DNA of 64,000 nucleotides from Acidobacteriota bacterium (GTDB lineage Bacteria > Acidobacteriota > Holophagae > Holophagales > Holophagaceae): positions 1-64,000 of the forward strand of contig JACPYP010000020.1 in NCBI GenBank assembly GCA_016195985.1, given 5' to 3'. Of the stretch, positions 8,674-27,920 are shown piece by piece. A program made the translations under genes and the position numbers. A model generated the notes under the pieces. It saw only the letters and a program-made list of their open reading frames with translations. It did not search any database and was not told the DNA's origin. Each line of letters starts with the position of its first letter. Within the stretch, counting starts at the first letter, position 1.

Positions 8674-8797
8674 GAGCGTTATCCAGAAAGGTGGAGGGAA
8701 AGGCCCTGTGAAACCTTGGCAACCTGCTTATGCAAGGTGCCAATTCCTGCCCCCGGCGTGCCCATGGCACATTCCGGGGGGAAGATACCGAATGTCG
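8674..8797 (+). ncRNA. SAM-I (S-box) riboswitch
   Basis: The conserved S-box core is present in order: CCAGAAAGGTGGAGGG, GGCCCTGTGAAACC, TTGGCAACC, then AAGGTGCCAATTCCTGC, a GC-rich P4 hairpin (about 8751-8780) and GATA closing P1. This class binds S-adenosylmethionine and turns off methionine genes when SAM is high. Unlike the other two S-boxes in the window, no intrinsic terminator follows. Confidence 0.93.
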
Positions 8798-15482: not shown

Positions 15483-15596
15483 TAGCGCGCTATCCAGAAA
15501 GGTGGAGGGACGGGCCCTGTGAAACCTTGGCAACCTGCGAAAGCAAGGTGCCAATTCCTGCCGGCGGCTTTGGCCACCGGGTAGATGCCGAGCTGT
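15483..15596 (+). ncRNA. SAM-I (S-box) riboswitch before the sulfate operon
   Basis: All conserved S-box blocks are present (CCAGAAAGGTGGAGGGAC, GGGCCCTGTGAAACC, TTGGCAACC, AAGGTGCCAATTCCTGCC). P1 is closed by the complementary flanks AGCGCGCTATC and GATGCCGAGCT. Its core is nearly identical to the S-box before metY. It ties sulfate uptake and reduction to the SAM level, not only to cysteine. Confidence 0.95.
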
Positions 15597-19485: not shown

Positions 19486-20396
19486 CCGCCGCCGCGCCCA
19501 CGCTCTCCCACCTCGATTGGCTCGAGGCCGAAGCCATCCACATCCTCCGCGAAGTGGCCGGCCAGTGCGCCAACCCCGTGCTGCTCTTCAGCGGCGGCAA
19601 GGACAGCCTCGTGCTGCTGCGCCTCGCCGAAAAAGCCTTCCGCCCCGGCCGCTTCCCCTTCCCCCTGCTGCACATCGACACGGGGCACAACTACGAAGAA
19701 GTGACCGCCTTCCGCGACCGGCGCGCCGCCGAGCTGGGCGAGCGCCTCATCGTGCGCAGCCTGGAGGATTCCATCCGGCAAGGGCGCATCGCGCTGAAGT
19801 CCCCGATGGAAGCCCGCAACCGCCACCAGAGCGTGACCCTGCTGGACGCCATCGCCGAATTCGGCTTCGACGCCTGCATCGGCGGCGCCCGCCGCGACGA
19901 GGAGAAGGCCCGGGCCAAGGAGCGCATCTTCTCCTTCCGCGATGCCTTCGGCCAGTGGGATCCCAAGAACCAGCGGCCCGAATTGTGGGACCTCTACAAC
20001 GCCCGCATCGATGCCGGCGAAAACATCCGGGCCTTCCCCATCTCCAATTGGACCGAGCTGGACATCTGGCAGTACATCGAACGCGAAGGCCTGGCCCTGC
20101 CCAGCATCTACTTCGCCCACGAGCGCGAGGTGGCGGTGCGCAAGGACGGCGCCCTGGTGCCCGTCACCCCGCTCACGCCCGCGAAGCCCGGCGATGACGT
20201 GCAGCGCCTCTCCGTGCGCTTCCGCACCGTGGGCGACATCACTTGCACGGCTCCAGTGAGGAGTACGGCCCGCACCGTGGCCGAGATCCTCCTGGAAACC
20301 GCCACCACCGAGCTCACCGAACGGGGCGCCACCCGCCTGGACGACCAGACCAGCGAAGCCTCCATGGAGCAGCGCAAGAAGGAGGGCTACTTCTGA
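19482..20396 (+). CDS. cysD: Sulfate adenylyltransferase subunit 2
   Basis: Forms APS from ATP and sulfate together with the GTPase CysN. 304 residues. The PP-loop SGGKDS is near residue 38. Further family motifs are HIDTGHNYEE, GGARRDEEKARAKER and FPISNWTELDIWQYI, with the conserved C-terminal end RKKEGYF. Start and stop are overlapped with neighbours (ATGA with cysH, TGATG with cysN), indicating translational coupling along the operon. Confidence 0.96.
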   Translation: MTAAAPTLSHLDWLEAEAIHILREVAGQCANPVLLFSGGKDSLVLLRLAEKAFRPGRFPFPLLHIDTGHNYEEVTAFRDRRAAELGERLIVRSLEDSIRQGRIALKSPMEARNRHQSVTLLDAIAEFGFDACIGGARRDEEKARAKERIFSFRDAFGQWDPKNQRPELWDLYNARIDAGENIRAFPISNWTELDIWQYIEREGLALPSIYFAHEREVAVRKDGALVPVTPLTPAKPGDDVQRLSVRFRTVGDITCTAPVRSTARTVAEILLETATTELTERGATRLDDQTSEASMEQRKKEGYF

Positions 20397-21676
20397 TGGC
20401 CACCGCCACCCTCGCCTCCGGGCCCGACACCCGCGCCGACCTGGGCGTGCTCCGCTTCCTCACCTGCGGCAGCGTGGATGACGGCAAGAGCACCCTCATC
20501 GGCCGCCTGCTCTACGACAGCAAGGCCATCCTGGCGGACGCCCTCCAGGCCATCGAACGCACCAGCAGGAAGCGCGGCCACGCGGAGGTGGATCTGAGCC
20601 TCCTCACGGACGGCCTCCAGGCCGAGCGCGAACAGGGCATCACCATCGACGTGGCCTACCGCTACTTCAGCACGGGCCAGCGCAGCTTCATCATCGCCGA
20701 CGCCCCCGGCCACGAGCAGTACACCCGCAACATGGTCACCGCCGCCAGCACCGCCGACTTGGCGCTGATCCTCGTGGATGCCCGCAAGGGCGTGCTCACC
20801 CAGACTCGCCGCCACCTCACCCTGGCCCACCTCGTGGGCATCCGCCACCTAGTGGTGGTGGTGAACAAGATGGATCTCGTGGGCTACGACCAGGCCGTGT
20901 TCGAACGCATCCGCGCCGAGGTGCTGGCCTTCGCCGGGGAGCTGGGCGCCGAGGATCTCGTCTTCCTGCCCCTCTCCGCCCTCGCGGGGGATCTGGTGGT
21001 GGAGCGCGGGGGCAACCTGCCCTGGTACGGGGGCCCCACCCTCGTCGAGCTGCTGGAATCCGCGGCCCTGGAAGATGGGCGAGAGGAGCTGCCCTTCCGC
21101 CTCTCCGTCCAATGGGTGATCCGCCCCCACCAGGATTTCCGCGGCTACGCGGGACGGGTGGCAGCCGGCCGCGTGAAGGTGGGCGACGCTCTCACAGTGC
21201 TGCCCTCGGACCGCCGCAGCCGCGTGAAGGCCATCCACCTGGGCGGAGCGAGGCTCGACGAAGCCGTTGCCGGCCAGAGCGTCATCCTGGAACTGGAGGA
21301 TGACCTCGACATTTCCCGGGGCGACCTCCTCGCCGACGCGGGACGGCCGCCACTCCCGGCCCGCAGCCTGGACGCGGATCTCTGCTGGCTGTCCGAAGCG
21401 CCCTCGCGCCCGGGGGGCCGCTACCTGCTGCGCCACGGCAGCCGCGAAACCCGCGCCATCCTCCATGGAACGGCCCACCGCCTGGACCTCGACAGCCTCC
21501 AGCGGGAACCAGAAACGCGCCTGGCCATGAACGACATCGCGCAGCTCAGCCTGACATTGCAGCAGCCCCTGTCCGTCGACCCCTACCGGGAGATCCGCGC
21601 CACCGGCGCCTTCATCCTCGTCGACGAGACCACCCACGCCACTGTGGCCGCGGGCTTCATCCGCGGCGCGGAGTAG
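20396..21676 (+). CDS. cysN: Sulfate adenylyltransferase subunit 1 (GTPase)
   Basis: EF-Tu-like GTPase that drives APS synthesis by CysD. 426 residues. The P-loop GSVDDGKST is at 25-33. Switch regions are [13 protein letters not shown] and DAPGHEQY, and the guanine motif is NKMD. Two beta-barrel domains follow. It is not fused to an APS kinase (CysC), unlike NodQ-type proteins, consistent with direct APS reduction by CysH. AGGAGG-type Shine-Dalgarno lies within the end of cysD. Twenty-seven bases after the stop a short Cys-containing ORF begins. Confidence 0.96.
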
Positions 21677-21703
21677 CCCCGCTCCCCCATTCAAGGAGAC
21701 GCC

Positions 21704-21787
21704 ATGCGCTGTCCCTGTCGAAGCCGCATCCACGCTGACCTTCCACCCCTTGCGCTCCACTCGCCACATCCGCCTACTTCGGACTGA
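21704..21787 (+). CDS. 27-codon ORF before sbp, possible leader peptide
   Basis: An ATG with an ideal AAGGAG (21693-21698, five-base spacing) opens a 27-codon frame beginning [13 protein letters not shown] and ending four bases before the sbp start codon. Cys codons 3 and 5 are both TGT, the less expected Cys codon for such GC-rich DNA. sbp itself has no recognisable Shine-Dalgarno, so sbp translation may be coupled to this ORF. Short Cys-rich upstream ORFs that sense cysteine are known in mycobacteria, and many actinobacterial sulfur genes have leaders with a related R-x-H-x-DL motif. Expression here is inferred from the ribosome site and position only. No protein function is proposed. Confidence 0.5.
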
Positions 21788-21791
21788 ACCC

Positions 21792-22787
21792 ATGAACCGT
21801 CGCGCCCGCAGCTTCACCCTCCTCGCCCTTCTCACCTTCGCCCTCGGCCTCCAGGCCCAGAATGTGAAGCTTCTCAACGTGTCCTACGATCCCACCCGGG
21901 AGCTGTACCAGGATGTCAACGCCGCCTTCGCCAAGCAGTGGAAGGCCAAGACCGGCCAGACCGTCACCATCAACCAATCCCACGGCGGCAGCGGCAAGCA
22001 GGCCCGCGCCGTCATCGACGGGCTTCAAGCGGACGTCGTGACCCTCGCCCTGGCCGGCGACATCGATGCCTTGGCCGAAAAGGGCGGCCTGCTGCCCGCC
22101 GACTGGCAGAAGAAACTGCCCCAGAACAGCACGCCCTACACCTCGACCATCCTCTTCCTGGTGCGCAAGGGGAACCCCAAGGGCATCAGGGACTGGAACG
22201 ACCTGGTCCGCCCCGGCATCCAGGTGATCCAGCCCAATCCCAAGACCAGCGGCGGCGCGCGCTGGAACTACCTCGCCGAGTACGGCCAGGCCCTGCGCGC
22301 GCCCGGCGGCAGTGACGCCAAGGCCAAGGCCTACGTCGCCGCGGTCTACCGCAACGTGCCCGTGCTGGATTCCGGCGCCCGGGGGAGCACGACCACCTTC
22401 ATCGAGCGCGGCATCGGCGATGTGCTGGTGACCTGGGAGAACGAAGCTTTCCTGGCCCTCGAAGGTCCCGCCAAGAACAAGTTCGACATCGTGGTGCCCC
22501 CCGTCAGCATCCTGGCCGAACCCCCCGTGGCCCTGGTGGAGAAGGTGGCCGCCAGGCGTGGCACCACGGCCGTGGCCAAGGACTACCTGGACTACCTCTA
22601 CAGCGACGAAGGCCAGCGCATCGTGGCCAGGCACCACTTCCGGCCCCGCAACGAGAAGGCCGCCAGCCACGCTTTCCCCAACCTGAAACGCTTCACCATC
22701 GACGAAGCCTTCGGTGGGTGGAAGAAGGCCCACGACGTCCATTTCAAGGATGGCGGCCTCTTCGACCAGATCTCGATCATCCGCTAG
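21792..22787 (+). CDS. sbp: Sulfate ABC transporter substrate-binding protein
   Basis: Binds sulfate (or thiosulfate) in the periplasm for delivery to CysTWA. 331 residues. Signal peptide about 1-22 ([15 protein letters not shown]). The mature part starts with [15 protein letters not shown], typical of Sbp/CysP, and contains [14 protein letters not shown] and [16 protein letters not shown], which form the sulfate pocket. It follows the 27-codon ORF by four bases and has no Shine-Dalgarno of its own. Sulfate versus thiosulfate specificity cannot be decided from sequence. Confidence 0.96.
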
Positions 22788-22794
22788 GCCCAGC

Positions 22795-23613
22795 ATGGCA
22801 TCTCCCACCCGCTCCCTCCCGGGCTTCGGCCTCAGCCTGGGCCTCACCCTGGCCTACCTCAGCGCCATCGTGCTGCTGCCGCTCGCGGCCCTGGTCGTGA
22901 AGGCCAGCGGAGCGACCGCGGCCCAGGTGTGGCACACCGTCTCCGATCCCCGCGTGCTGGCCTCCCTGCGGCTGAGCCTCCTGGCCAGCCTGGGAGGGGC
23001 CCTGCTGAACCTGGTGTTCGGCGTGCTCGTGGCCTGGGTCCTGGTGCGCTACACCTTCCCGGGCCAGCGGGTGGTGGACGCCATGGTGGACCTGCCCTTC
23101 GCCCTGCCCACCGCCGTGGCGGGCATCGCCCTCACCAAGCTCTACGCCCCCGAAGGATGGCTCGGCCACCTGCTGCCCTTCAAGGTCGCCTACACGCCGC
23201 TGGGCGTGCTGGTGGCCCTCACCTTCATCGGCCTGCCCTTCGTGGTGCGCACCGTGCAGCCCGTGCTGGAGGAACTGGACGCCCAGGAAGAGGAGGCCGC
23301 CGCCTGCCTGGGCGCCAGCCGCTTCCAGATCCTGCGGCGGGTGGTGCTGCCGCACCTGGCCCCCGCCCTGCTCTCGGGCTTCACGCTGGCCTTCGCCCGG
23401 GCCCTGGGCGAGTACGGATCGGTGGTGTTCATCAGCGGCAACCTGCCCTTCCGCACGGAGATCCCGCCCCTGCTCATCATCAGCAAGCTGGAGCAGTACG
23501 ACTACATCGGCGCCACGGTCCTCGCCACCCTGCTGCTGCTGATCTCCTTTGCGCTGCTCTTCGCCATCAACCGCCTGCAGGCCAGGCTCCGCCCGGGAGC
23601 CGCCCGTGGCTGA
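22795..23613 (+). CDS. cysT: Sulfate ABC transporter permease CysT
   Basis: Inner-membrane permease, 272 residues with about six hydrophobic segments. The cytoplasmic EAA loop reads EEEAAACLGASRFQILRRV, the site that contacts the CysA ATPase. The N-terminal half carries the family phrase DLPFALPTAVAGIAL. It starts seven bases after sbp and overlaps cysW by eight bases. With CysW it forms the heterodimeric sulfate channel. Confidence 0.95.
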   Translation: MASPTRSLPGFGLSLGLTLAYLSAIVLLPLAALVVKASGATAAQVWHTVSDPRVLASLRLSLLASLGGALLNLVFGVLVAWVLVRYTFPGQRVVDAMVDLPFALPTAVAGIALTKLYAPEGWLGHLLPFKVAYTPLGVLVALTFIGLPFVVRTVQPVLEELDAQEEEAAACLGASRFQILRRVVLPHLAPALLSGFTLAFARALGEYGSVVFISGNLPFRTEIPPLLIISKLEQYDYIGATVLATLLLLISFALLFAINRLQARLRPGAARG

Positions 23614-24475
23614 ATCCTCCCGCCTCTCGGCCGCCCGCCAGGAATCGCGGCCCGTCCGCTGGCTGCTCATCCTCGCGGCCCTGGGCTACCTCGCCCTCTT
23701 CCTCCTGGCGCCCCTGGCGGCGGTCTTCGCCGAGGCCTTCAAGCAGGGCGCCGCCGCCTACTTCAAGGCCTTCGAGGATGCAGAGGCCTGGCACGCCATC
23801 CGCCTTTCCCTGCTGGCCATGGGCATCGCCGTGGCCCTCAATACGGCCTTCGGCCTCACGGCGGCCTGGCTGCTGGGCAAGTTCGACTTCCGGGGCCGGA
23901 ACCTGCTCACCAGCCTCATCGACCTGCCCTTCGCGGTATCCCCGGTGATCTCGGGCCTGATCTTCGTGCTGCTCTTCGGCGCCCAGGGCTGGTTCGGCCC
24001 CTGGCTGGCGGACCGCGACATCCGCCTCATCTTCGCCACACCGGGCATCGTGCTGGCCACCACCTTCGTGACCTTCCCCTTCGTGGCCCGCGAGCTCACG
24101 CCCGTCATGCTGGCCAAGGGCTGCGACCAAGAGGAAGCCGCCCGCATGCTGGGCGCCAGCGGCTGGCAAACCTTCTGGCGCGTCACCCTGCCCTCCGTGA
24201 AGTGGGGCCTGCTCTACGGCGTCATCCTCTGCAGCGCCCGCGCCATGGGCGAGTTCGGCGCCGTGAGCGTGGTGTCGGGCCACATCCGCGGTGAGACCAA
24301 CACCCTGCCCCTCCACATCGAGACCCTCTACAACGAGTACCAGTTTGTGGCCGCCTTCGCCTGCGCCTCGGCCCTCAGCCTGCTGGCCTTGGTGACCCTG
24401 GCCCTCAAGGCTTTCGCCGAACGCCGCCGCGACCTAGATCTGAATCCGGATTTGAAACAAGAGACTGCCCCATGA
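23606..24475 (+). CDS. cysW: Sulfate ABC transporter permease CysW
   Basis: Second permease subunit, 289 residues, about six membrane helices. It has the phrase [15 protein letters not shown] and the EAA loop [19 protein letters not shown]. CysW-typical ending includes [15 protein letters not shown] and [13 protein letters not shown]. It starts at GTG 23606, inside the end of cysT; the first in-frame alternative would remove the N-terminal hydrophilic tail only. It ends in an ATGA overlap with cysA. Confidence 0.95.
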
Positions 24476-25557
24476 GCATCCACATCGATTCCGTCTCCAA
24501 GCAGTTCGGCAGTTTCGCCGCCCTCCAGGATGTGTCCCTGGCCATTCCCGAAGGCCAGTTGGTGGCCCTGCTGGGGCCCTCGGGCTCGGGCAAGACCACC
24601 CTGCTGCGCATCATCGCCGGCCTGGAGGCCCCCGACGCAGGCGGCGTACGGATCCACGGCGACGCGAAACCCTCGATCCACGCCAGACGCAAGGTGGGTT
24701 TCGTCTTCCAGCACTACGCGCTCTTCAGCCACATGACCGTCTTCGAGAACGTCGCCTTCGGCCTGCGTGTGCGGCCCCGCTGGGACCGGCCTTCCAAGGC
24801 CGCGATCAAGGAGCGCGTGCAGAAGGTGCTCGCCATGGTGCATCTGGATTGGGCCGGGCACCGCATGCCGGACCAGCTCAGCGGCGGCCAGCGCCAACGG
24901 GTGGCCCTGGCCCGGGCCCTGGCCATCGAACCCGAGGTGCTGCTGCTGGACGAGCCCTTCGGCGCCCTGGACGCGCAGGTCCGCGCGGAGCTGCGCCAGT
25001 GGCTGCGGCGCCTCCACGAACAGACGGGCCTCACCTCCGTCTTCGTCACCCACGATCAGGAGGAGGCCATGGAGGTGGCGGATCGCATCGTCGTCCTCCA
25101 CGAGGGCCGCATCGAGCAGGACGGCACGCCTCAGGAGGTCTACGACCACCCTGCCACGTCCTTCATCTACCAGTTCATCGGCCAGGTGAACCGCTTTCGC
25201 GGCCGCATCCGCGACGGCCACTTCCAGGTGGGCGACGCTTCCGTGTCCGTGGCTGGACACCCCCATGAGGAAGGCACCCGGGTGGAGGGCTACCTGCGGC
25301 CCCACGACCTGGACCTCGCCCTGGAACGGAGCCCCGGCGCCCTTCCGGCCACCATCACCCGCATCCAGTCCACGGGCCCCCTGGCCCGGGTGCGCCTGGC
25401 CGCCGCCCACGACCAGTCCGATCTGGAAGCCCACCTGAGCACCGAGGACCTGGCCCAGCTGAGCCTCGCCGTGGGCCAGAAGATCTTCGTGAAGCCCCGC
25501 CGCCTCGATCTCTTCCCGGACACGTCGCCCGCCACCGCGGAGGATTGGGTGATCTGA
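24472..25557 (+). CDS. cysA: Sulfate ABC transporter ATP-binding protein
   Basis: 361-residue ATPase of the sulfate importer. Walker [10 protein letters not shown] is at 35-43. The Q-loop is VFQHYALF, the signature [15 protein letters not shown], Walker [12 protein letters not shown] and the switch His is in [10 protein letters not shown]. The C-terminal extension (about 240-361) is the TOBE-like regulatory domain common in CysA. It is the last gene of the operon. No simple terminator follows, but a 110-base palindromic element starts 32 bases downstream. Confidence 0.96.
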
Positions 25558-27803: not shown

Positions 27804-27920
27804 CCATAGCGAGTTATCCAGAAAGGTGGAGGGACGGGCCCTGTGAAACCTTGGCAACCTGCGAAAGCAAGGTGCCAATTCCTGCCGCGATCGATTGATT
27901 GCGGAGAGATGTCGAGCTGT
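27804..27920 (+). ncRNA. SAM-I (S-box) riboswitch before metY
   Basis: It has the same conserved blocks as the S-box at 15483. From the CCATAGCG leader through CCTGCCG the two differ at only two positions, in the P1 strand. P1 is closed by GAGAGATGTCGAGCTGT. It controls metY-metA-lysC. Confidence 0.95.

Follow-up and report, generated by a model that had tools for sequence, protein, structure and literature searches.

The window, a stretch of 64,000 nucleotides from a genome of the Holophagaceae (Acidobacteriota), contains a sulfate assimilation operon with a SAM riboswitch at its head, and within this operon, between cysN and sbp, lies a short open reading frame (ORF) with its own strong Shine-Dalgarno (SD) sequence and two early Cys codons (Table 1). 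Two further SAM riboswitches are found in the window, at 8676-8791 and 27811-27915, the latter preceding an O-acetylhomoserine sulfhydrylase-like gene.

Table 1. Coordinates of the leader ORF, its elements and the surrounding sulfate operon (window positions), and of the second leader found in the same genome
Feature	Position	Strand	Basis
SAM riboswitch, head of sulfate assimilation operon	15487..15591	+	Rfam RF00162, 79 bits
cysN, directly upstream of leader	20396..21676	+	TIGR02034, E 2e-167
SD of leader ORF, AAGGAG	21693..21698	+	sequence; -8.0 kcal/mol to anti-SD
Leader ORF, 27 sense codons + TGA (21785-21787)	21704..21787	+	sequence; position kept in 8/9 genus loci
Cys codon TGT, codon 3 of leader	21710..21712	+	in-frame Cys kept across species
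Cys codon TGT, codon 5 of leader	21716..21718	+	in-frame Cys kept across species
C-rich, G-poor unstructured spacer, leader 3' part up to sbp start	21728..21791	+	C 0.48, G 0.14
sbp, sulfate-binding protein, weak SD	21792..22787	+	NCBIfam NF008022, E 2.5e-143; SD -4.1 kcal/mol
cysT, cysW, cysA, remaining sulfate ABC transporter, downstream of leader	22795..25557	+	ORFs; synteny in 8 relatives
MRCLCGC leader (L126), before serine O-acetyltransferase	G000 contig C20, ~136766-136876	-	

An earlier, sequence-only reading of this DNA had described an SD-led ORF of 27 codons with two early TGT codons, ending 4 nt before sbp, and every element of that description was confirmed: the leader TGA and the sbp ATG are separated by the four bases ACCC. 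It had also remarked that sbp has no visible SD and, indeed, just a weak GGA (-4.1 kcal/mol) was found there, although a weak SD is in itself not unusual in this operon, because cysD and cysA have SDs about as weak. The 27-residue peptide matched no model in Pfam or NCBIfam, and the ORF is best read as a predicted translated leader rather than a protein gene. Its 3' part, the spacer running up to sbp, ranks within roughly the highest 1% of the operon for C-G skew and has a fold z of +0.68, showing no structure beyond chance.

The leader is a recurrent feature of the genus. Of 47 genomes sampled, nine have a full-length sbp (two more matches were short and were left out), and eight of these nine operon-bearing loci have a short ORF with its own SD immediately behind cysN; as the window's genome (G000) and G030 are closely related, seven of the eight are counted as independent where it matters. 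Two or three Cys codons occur within codons 2-9 in seven of the eight leaders (G000, G030, G027, G015, G045, G041 and G043), and the leader starts at the cysN-sbp junction include MRCPCRSR.., MTCCSGPH.., MTRCCRPC.., MTRCRCTS.., MCRRCCRP and MTDSCRHC, the last two ending there in a stop codon. The eighth leader, in G006, has one Cys left (MRASCRSL..; MRASCRSLRAPSVRPILHLRHPYQGTP up to the stop) and lies at a cysN-porin junction, and G004 has the same operon with no leader in its cysN-sbp gap. The leaders run from 8 to 27 aa, and neither the Cys spacing nor any other residue is constant among species.

Several observations bear on whether these Cys codons are selected. Counted by frame over codons 2-9 of the seven independent loci, TGY triplets are distributed 15:0:0 (Fisher 1.7e-8), and when each of seven gaps was dinucleotide-shuffled, only 0-0.25% of the shuffles gave an ORF behind an SD with two Cys codons near its start. 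TGT, the rare Cys codon in the genes of the window (14/116 in long, high-GC3 ORFs), is the majority codon in the leaders (12/16; P 3e-7). In the nearest pair, G000 and G030, 40/42 nt are identical from the SD to codon 11 and 27/51 in the remainder, so the leader tail evolves like spacer. Close to the operon genes, in the 13-15 kb around each operon, the leader has no counterpart among intergenic SD-led ATG ORFs. The comparison of frame and Cys codons at the cysN-sbp gap, which the sequence-only reading had singled out, is thus favourable, both being kept while the surrounding DNA drifts; since the in-frame Cys codons persist and the tail does not, selection appears to act on the Cys codons at the leader start, a pattern seen within one genus. 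Outside the Holophagaceae, 73 sbp loci contained no such ORF (14 SD-led upstream ATGs, with 0 Cys in 111 codons), and a pattern search elsewhere in the family for copies of the leader starts of the other species returned, besides the known copy, only matches with 2-3 mismatches, judged from the matched letters to be chance. The peptide motif RSRIHADL, once thought to recall actinobacterial leaders, had to be abandoned as a family motif: it is kept by the nearest species, G030 (RSRIHAAL), is absent elsewhere and has no NCBIfam or Pfam match.

The gene order cysG, cysH, cysD, cysN, [leader], sbp, cysT, cysW, cysA is syntenic in eight relatives, with deviations in G006, where a porin gene stands between cysN and sbp, and in G004, which lacks the leader. 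The G006 gene, of Porin_O_P type and directly behind the leader (L098 / L237), suggests an outer-membrane channel for sulfate. In the longer cysN-sbp gaps (L004, L008, L009), the leader is preceded or replaced by a sequence that resembles a repeat (CACCACGAAGAC.. / TCTGCGCTCTCTGCG..). In three relatives (G041, G043 and G027) cysE is appended after cysA, and the leader there therefore precedes genes for both uptake and cysteine synthesis. The SAM riboswitch is present at the operon head only in G000, G030 and G006, and was not detected at this position in five relatives carrying a Cys leader, which makes the Cys leader the more widespread layer. The proposal of a second control layer inside a SAM-riboswitch operon could consequently apply only to this species and two neighbours, not to the five other leader carriers; likewise, control of transport only agrees with the gene layout in this genome and fails in the three relatives with cysE downstream.

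We found no device by which all sbp leaders would act on the next gene. There is no intrinsic terminator within 21400-22000, no promoter-like site in the cysN-sbp gap and no conserved sequestering structure in the sbp-leader RNA, and the cost of opening the region around the start changes in no consistent way among the sbp leaders. Sequestration of the SD gained no support as a general mechanism at sbp, cognate pairing being no better than swapped pairing (permutation P 0.42). Pairings in G015 (TCCCTG with CAGGGA over the SD, P 0.10), in G006 (8 bp, CTTCGACA, P 0.001) and in G030 (7 bp, P 0.05) are suggestive but are placed at different sites.

A pattern search revealed a second Cys leader in the window's own genome, MRCLCGC followed by a stop (GGGAGGACC ATGCGCTGTCTGTGCGGCTGT TGA), upstream of a gene matching serine O-acetyltransferase (TIGR01172, E 3.5e-48, though below the model cut-off). 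Four sister copies, likewise ending in a stop, occur in two relatives: MRCLSCC in G006 (L198), upstream of the same serine O-acetyltransferase gene, and MRCLCCC three times in G030 (L195, L196, L197). Behind one G030 copy come, in this order, a gene of the DHDPS family, an O-acetylhomoserine sulfhydrylase-like gene and cysE; the others precede another DHDPS-family gene and a gene with a carboxypeptidase-regulatory-like domain, and these G030 genes may mark unrecognised sulfur metabolism. A TGCTAGGCT-like sequence, -10-like by eye, precedes four of the five sister leaders, and not clearly the second G030 copy. All five fold alike, into a long hairpin that pairs the leader ORF, around an inner stem, with the SD and ATG of the next start, which is cysE itself in G000 and an intermediate ORF in the other copies. 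This pairing is satisfied in 91% of cells, as against 32-45% when slid, and four pairs are changed on both sides; a covariance model, with 40 candidates per genome scored in 93 genomes of the class, matched just the five sister leaders, and the sister-leader model R1 did not match the sbp leaders. Single-sequence fold z values are -2.1, -2.1, -1.1, -0.8 and +0.6, only partly significant, and the sister leaders also respond unevenly in the stalled-ribosome opening test; the case for the structure therefore comes from the shared fold and the four-pair changes in five related copies. As a proposed mechanism for these leaders, pausing of a ribosome at their Cys codons would melt the hairpin, and the next start would become accessible. 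The SD-led short ORF before a sulfur gene and the in-frame, apparently selected Cys codons, both general features of Cys attenuators, are found at sbp, and a start-site pairing structure is conserved for the cysE-type leaders and not for the sbp leaders.

We consider it probable, though by no means certain, that the sbp leader is an operon-internal cysteine-sensing leader that acts through its own translation. The strong SD would load ribosomes just after cysN, and these would reach the Cys codons, mostly the rare TGT, within a few codons; when charged cysteinyl-tRNA is scarce they would pause there, and the pause would alter how often the weakly initiated sbp-cysTWA genes (with cysE in three relatives) are translated. 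Derepression of sbp-cysTWA on cysteine shortage would be the likelier sign. We infer pausing as the signal and derepression as the outcome because the sister leaders (MRCLCGC, MRCLCCC) have a conserved start-site hairpin; both the sign and the way in which the signal would reach sbp are putative, since the sbp leaders carry no sister hairpin, terminator or promoter. An attenuator would be expected to have more than two separated Cys codons, or the single one of G006, and this counts against cysteine sensing, as does the presence of the same operon without a leader in G004. An ORF that ends at the next start could also make sbp translation dependent on finishing the leader, with the opposite sign.

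This last arrangement is the core of an alternative that we regard as unlikely but worth keeping in sight, in which the leader is a reinitiation booster: its strong SD would recruit ribosomes which, having terminated on the sbp start or beside it, would begin again there and so offset the weak sbp SD, and through the Cys codons a cysteine shortage would lower sbp translation instead of raising it. Leader genes near structural genes have been proposed to raise expression in this way, Acidobacteria included (PMC4833913), and the leader SDs (-5.9 to -8.0 kcal/mol) are stronger than those of the next gene (-3.1 to -4.9 kcal/mol). The translational coupling to sbp suggested by the sequence-only reading fares unevenly: five of eight leaders end no more than 4 nt from the next start, three of them as ATGA overlaps, but this excess over shuffles reaches just P ~0.05, and in G027, G041 and G043 the stops are 30-91 nt upstream. 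Moreover, reinitiation by itself leaves the in-frame Cys and rare TGT codons unexplained, and it predicts an odd sign of response for a system that imports a precursor of cysteine. Rather improbable, in our judgement, is Rho-dependent attenuation, with the C-rich, G-poor spacer as a Rho loading site whose exposure is set by where the leader ribosome stalls. The spacers are pyrimidine-rich across loci (C 0.28-0.57, G 0.12-0.19), the window copy is extreme in C-G skew for its operon, and mycobacterial Cys leaders also have terminator-less, pyrimidine-rich spacers (PMC1262725); against this, G043 shows little skew (0.11), the region before cysD reaches 0.23 too, and a stall at codons 3-5 would expose the site and so cause termination at low cysteine.

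The remaining explanations concern the ORF itself. A small functional Cys peptide, binding metal or sulfur, would account for a Cys-rich N-terminus retained in seven species; it is very improbable given that neither length nor Cys spacing nor the rest of the sequence is constant, that the 3' part has diverged in the manner of non-coding DNA, that G006 retains a single Cys and that no protein family matches. That the ORF arose by chance in a gap rich in C, or that a DNA or RNA motif is conserved and reads as Cys incidentally, is hardly credible: short ORFs are common and the nearest pair shares DNA besides the codons, but the shuffles seldom yield such an ORF, the TGY triplets are frame-specific across otherwise unlike sequences, and the other junctions of the same loci have no ORF of this kind.

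Cysteine sensing by the leader being our preferred reading, the leader probably lets the cell gauge its cysteine supply during translation and tune sulfate uptake accordingly. On a broader view, which we advance tentatively and at a little short of even confidence, this Holophagaceae genus evolved, independently of Actinobacteria, a two-type set of cysteine-sensing leaders, one operon-internal and the other stand-alone, polycysteine and with a start-site hairpin, to which one sublineage adds the SAM riboswitch. If so, the operon-internal leader would separate the control of sulfate uptake from that of the upstream reduction genes, the stand-alone leaders would serve serine acetyltransferase and other genes, and one sublineage would read SAM and cysteine by two RNA-level devices in a single transcript. 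The locus represents a conserved Cys-leader case in Acidobacteriota, inside an operon rather than at its head, and the compact sister type supplies a clear structural hypothesis; the leader makes testable in what way bacteria part the control of sulfate uptake from that of sulfate reduction, and by what means an early two-codon sensor could work in the absence of an evident RNA switch.

Candidate Cys leader peptides have been predicted for cys operons of Mycobacterium and Propionibacterium and for cbs of Bifidobacterium (PMC1262725), and Cys leaders in mycobacteria have been seen by ribosome profiling (PMC4633059). The polycysteine short ORFs of mycobacteria are translation attenuators according to Canestrari et al. 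2020, as cited in PMC13236596 and PMC9094748; in the mechanism as cited there, the next SD is masked by pairing until a stalled ribosome releases it. No report of Cys leaders in Acidobacteriota was found in the literature searched, mostly open-access papers.

The sbp leader shares features with these and other systems, and also differs from each of them: (i) as far as the citing papers describe them, the mycobacterial polycysteine ORFs are, like both leader types here, short Cys-coding ORFs upstream of sulfur genes, and the hairpin of the cysE-type leaders resembles their SD-hiding pairing. However, the mycobacterial ORFs so described are leaderless and have Cys runs, whereas the sbp leader is SD-led and operon-internal with no promoter-like site found, has Cys at codons 3 and 5 of 27 with no run near the stop (the cysE-type MRCLCCC has one), has no conserved sequestering structure or family-model match, and belongs to another phylum. 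We do not claim membership of the mycobacterial type for it, because it lacks the Cys run near the stop and shows no sign of a leaderless start. (ii) The actinobacterial leaders of PMC1262725 have in common with the sbp leader the Cys codons, a sulfur gene downstream, a pyrimidine-rich spacer and no terminator hairpin; unlike it, they carry Cys runs near the stop codon and stand upstream of whole operons, in Actinobacteria. (iii) Classical attenuators of the trp/his type also have an ORF with codons for the end product of the pathway, but they act through a terminator/antiterminator pair, and none was found at the sbp leader. (iv) The SAM (S-box) riboswitch RF00162 heads the same operon in this genome, but reads SAM in RNA without translation. 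Taken together, the best reading is that the sbp leader works like the cysteine attenuators of Actinobacteria without being a member of their family.
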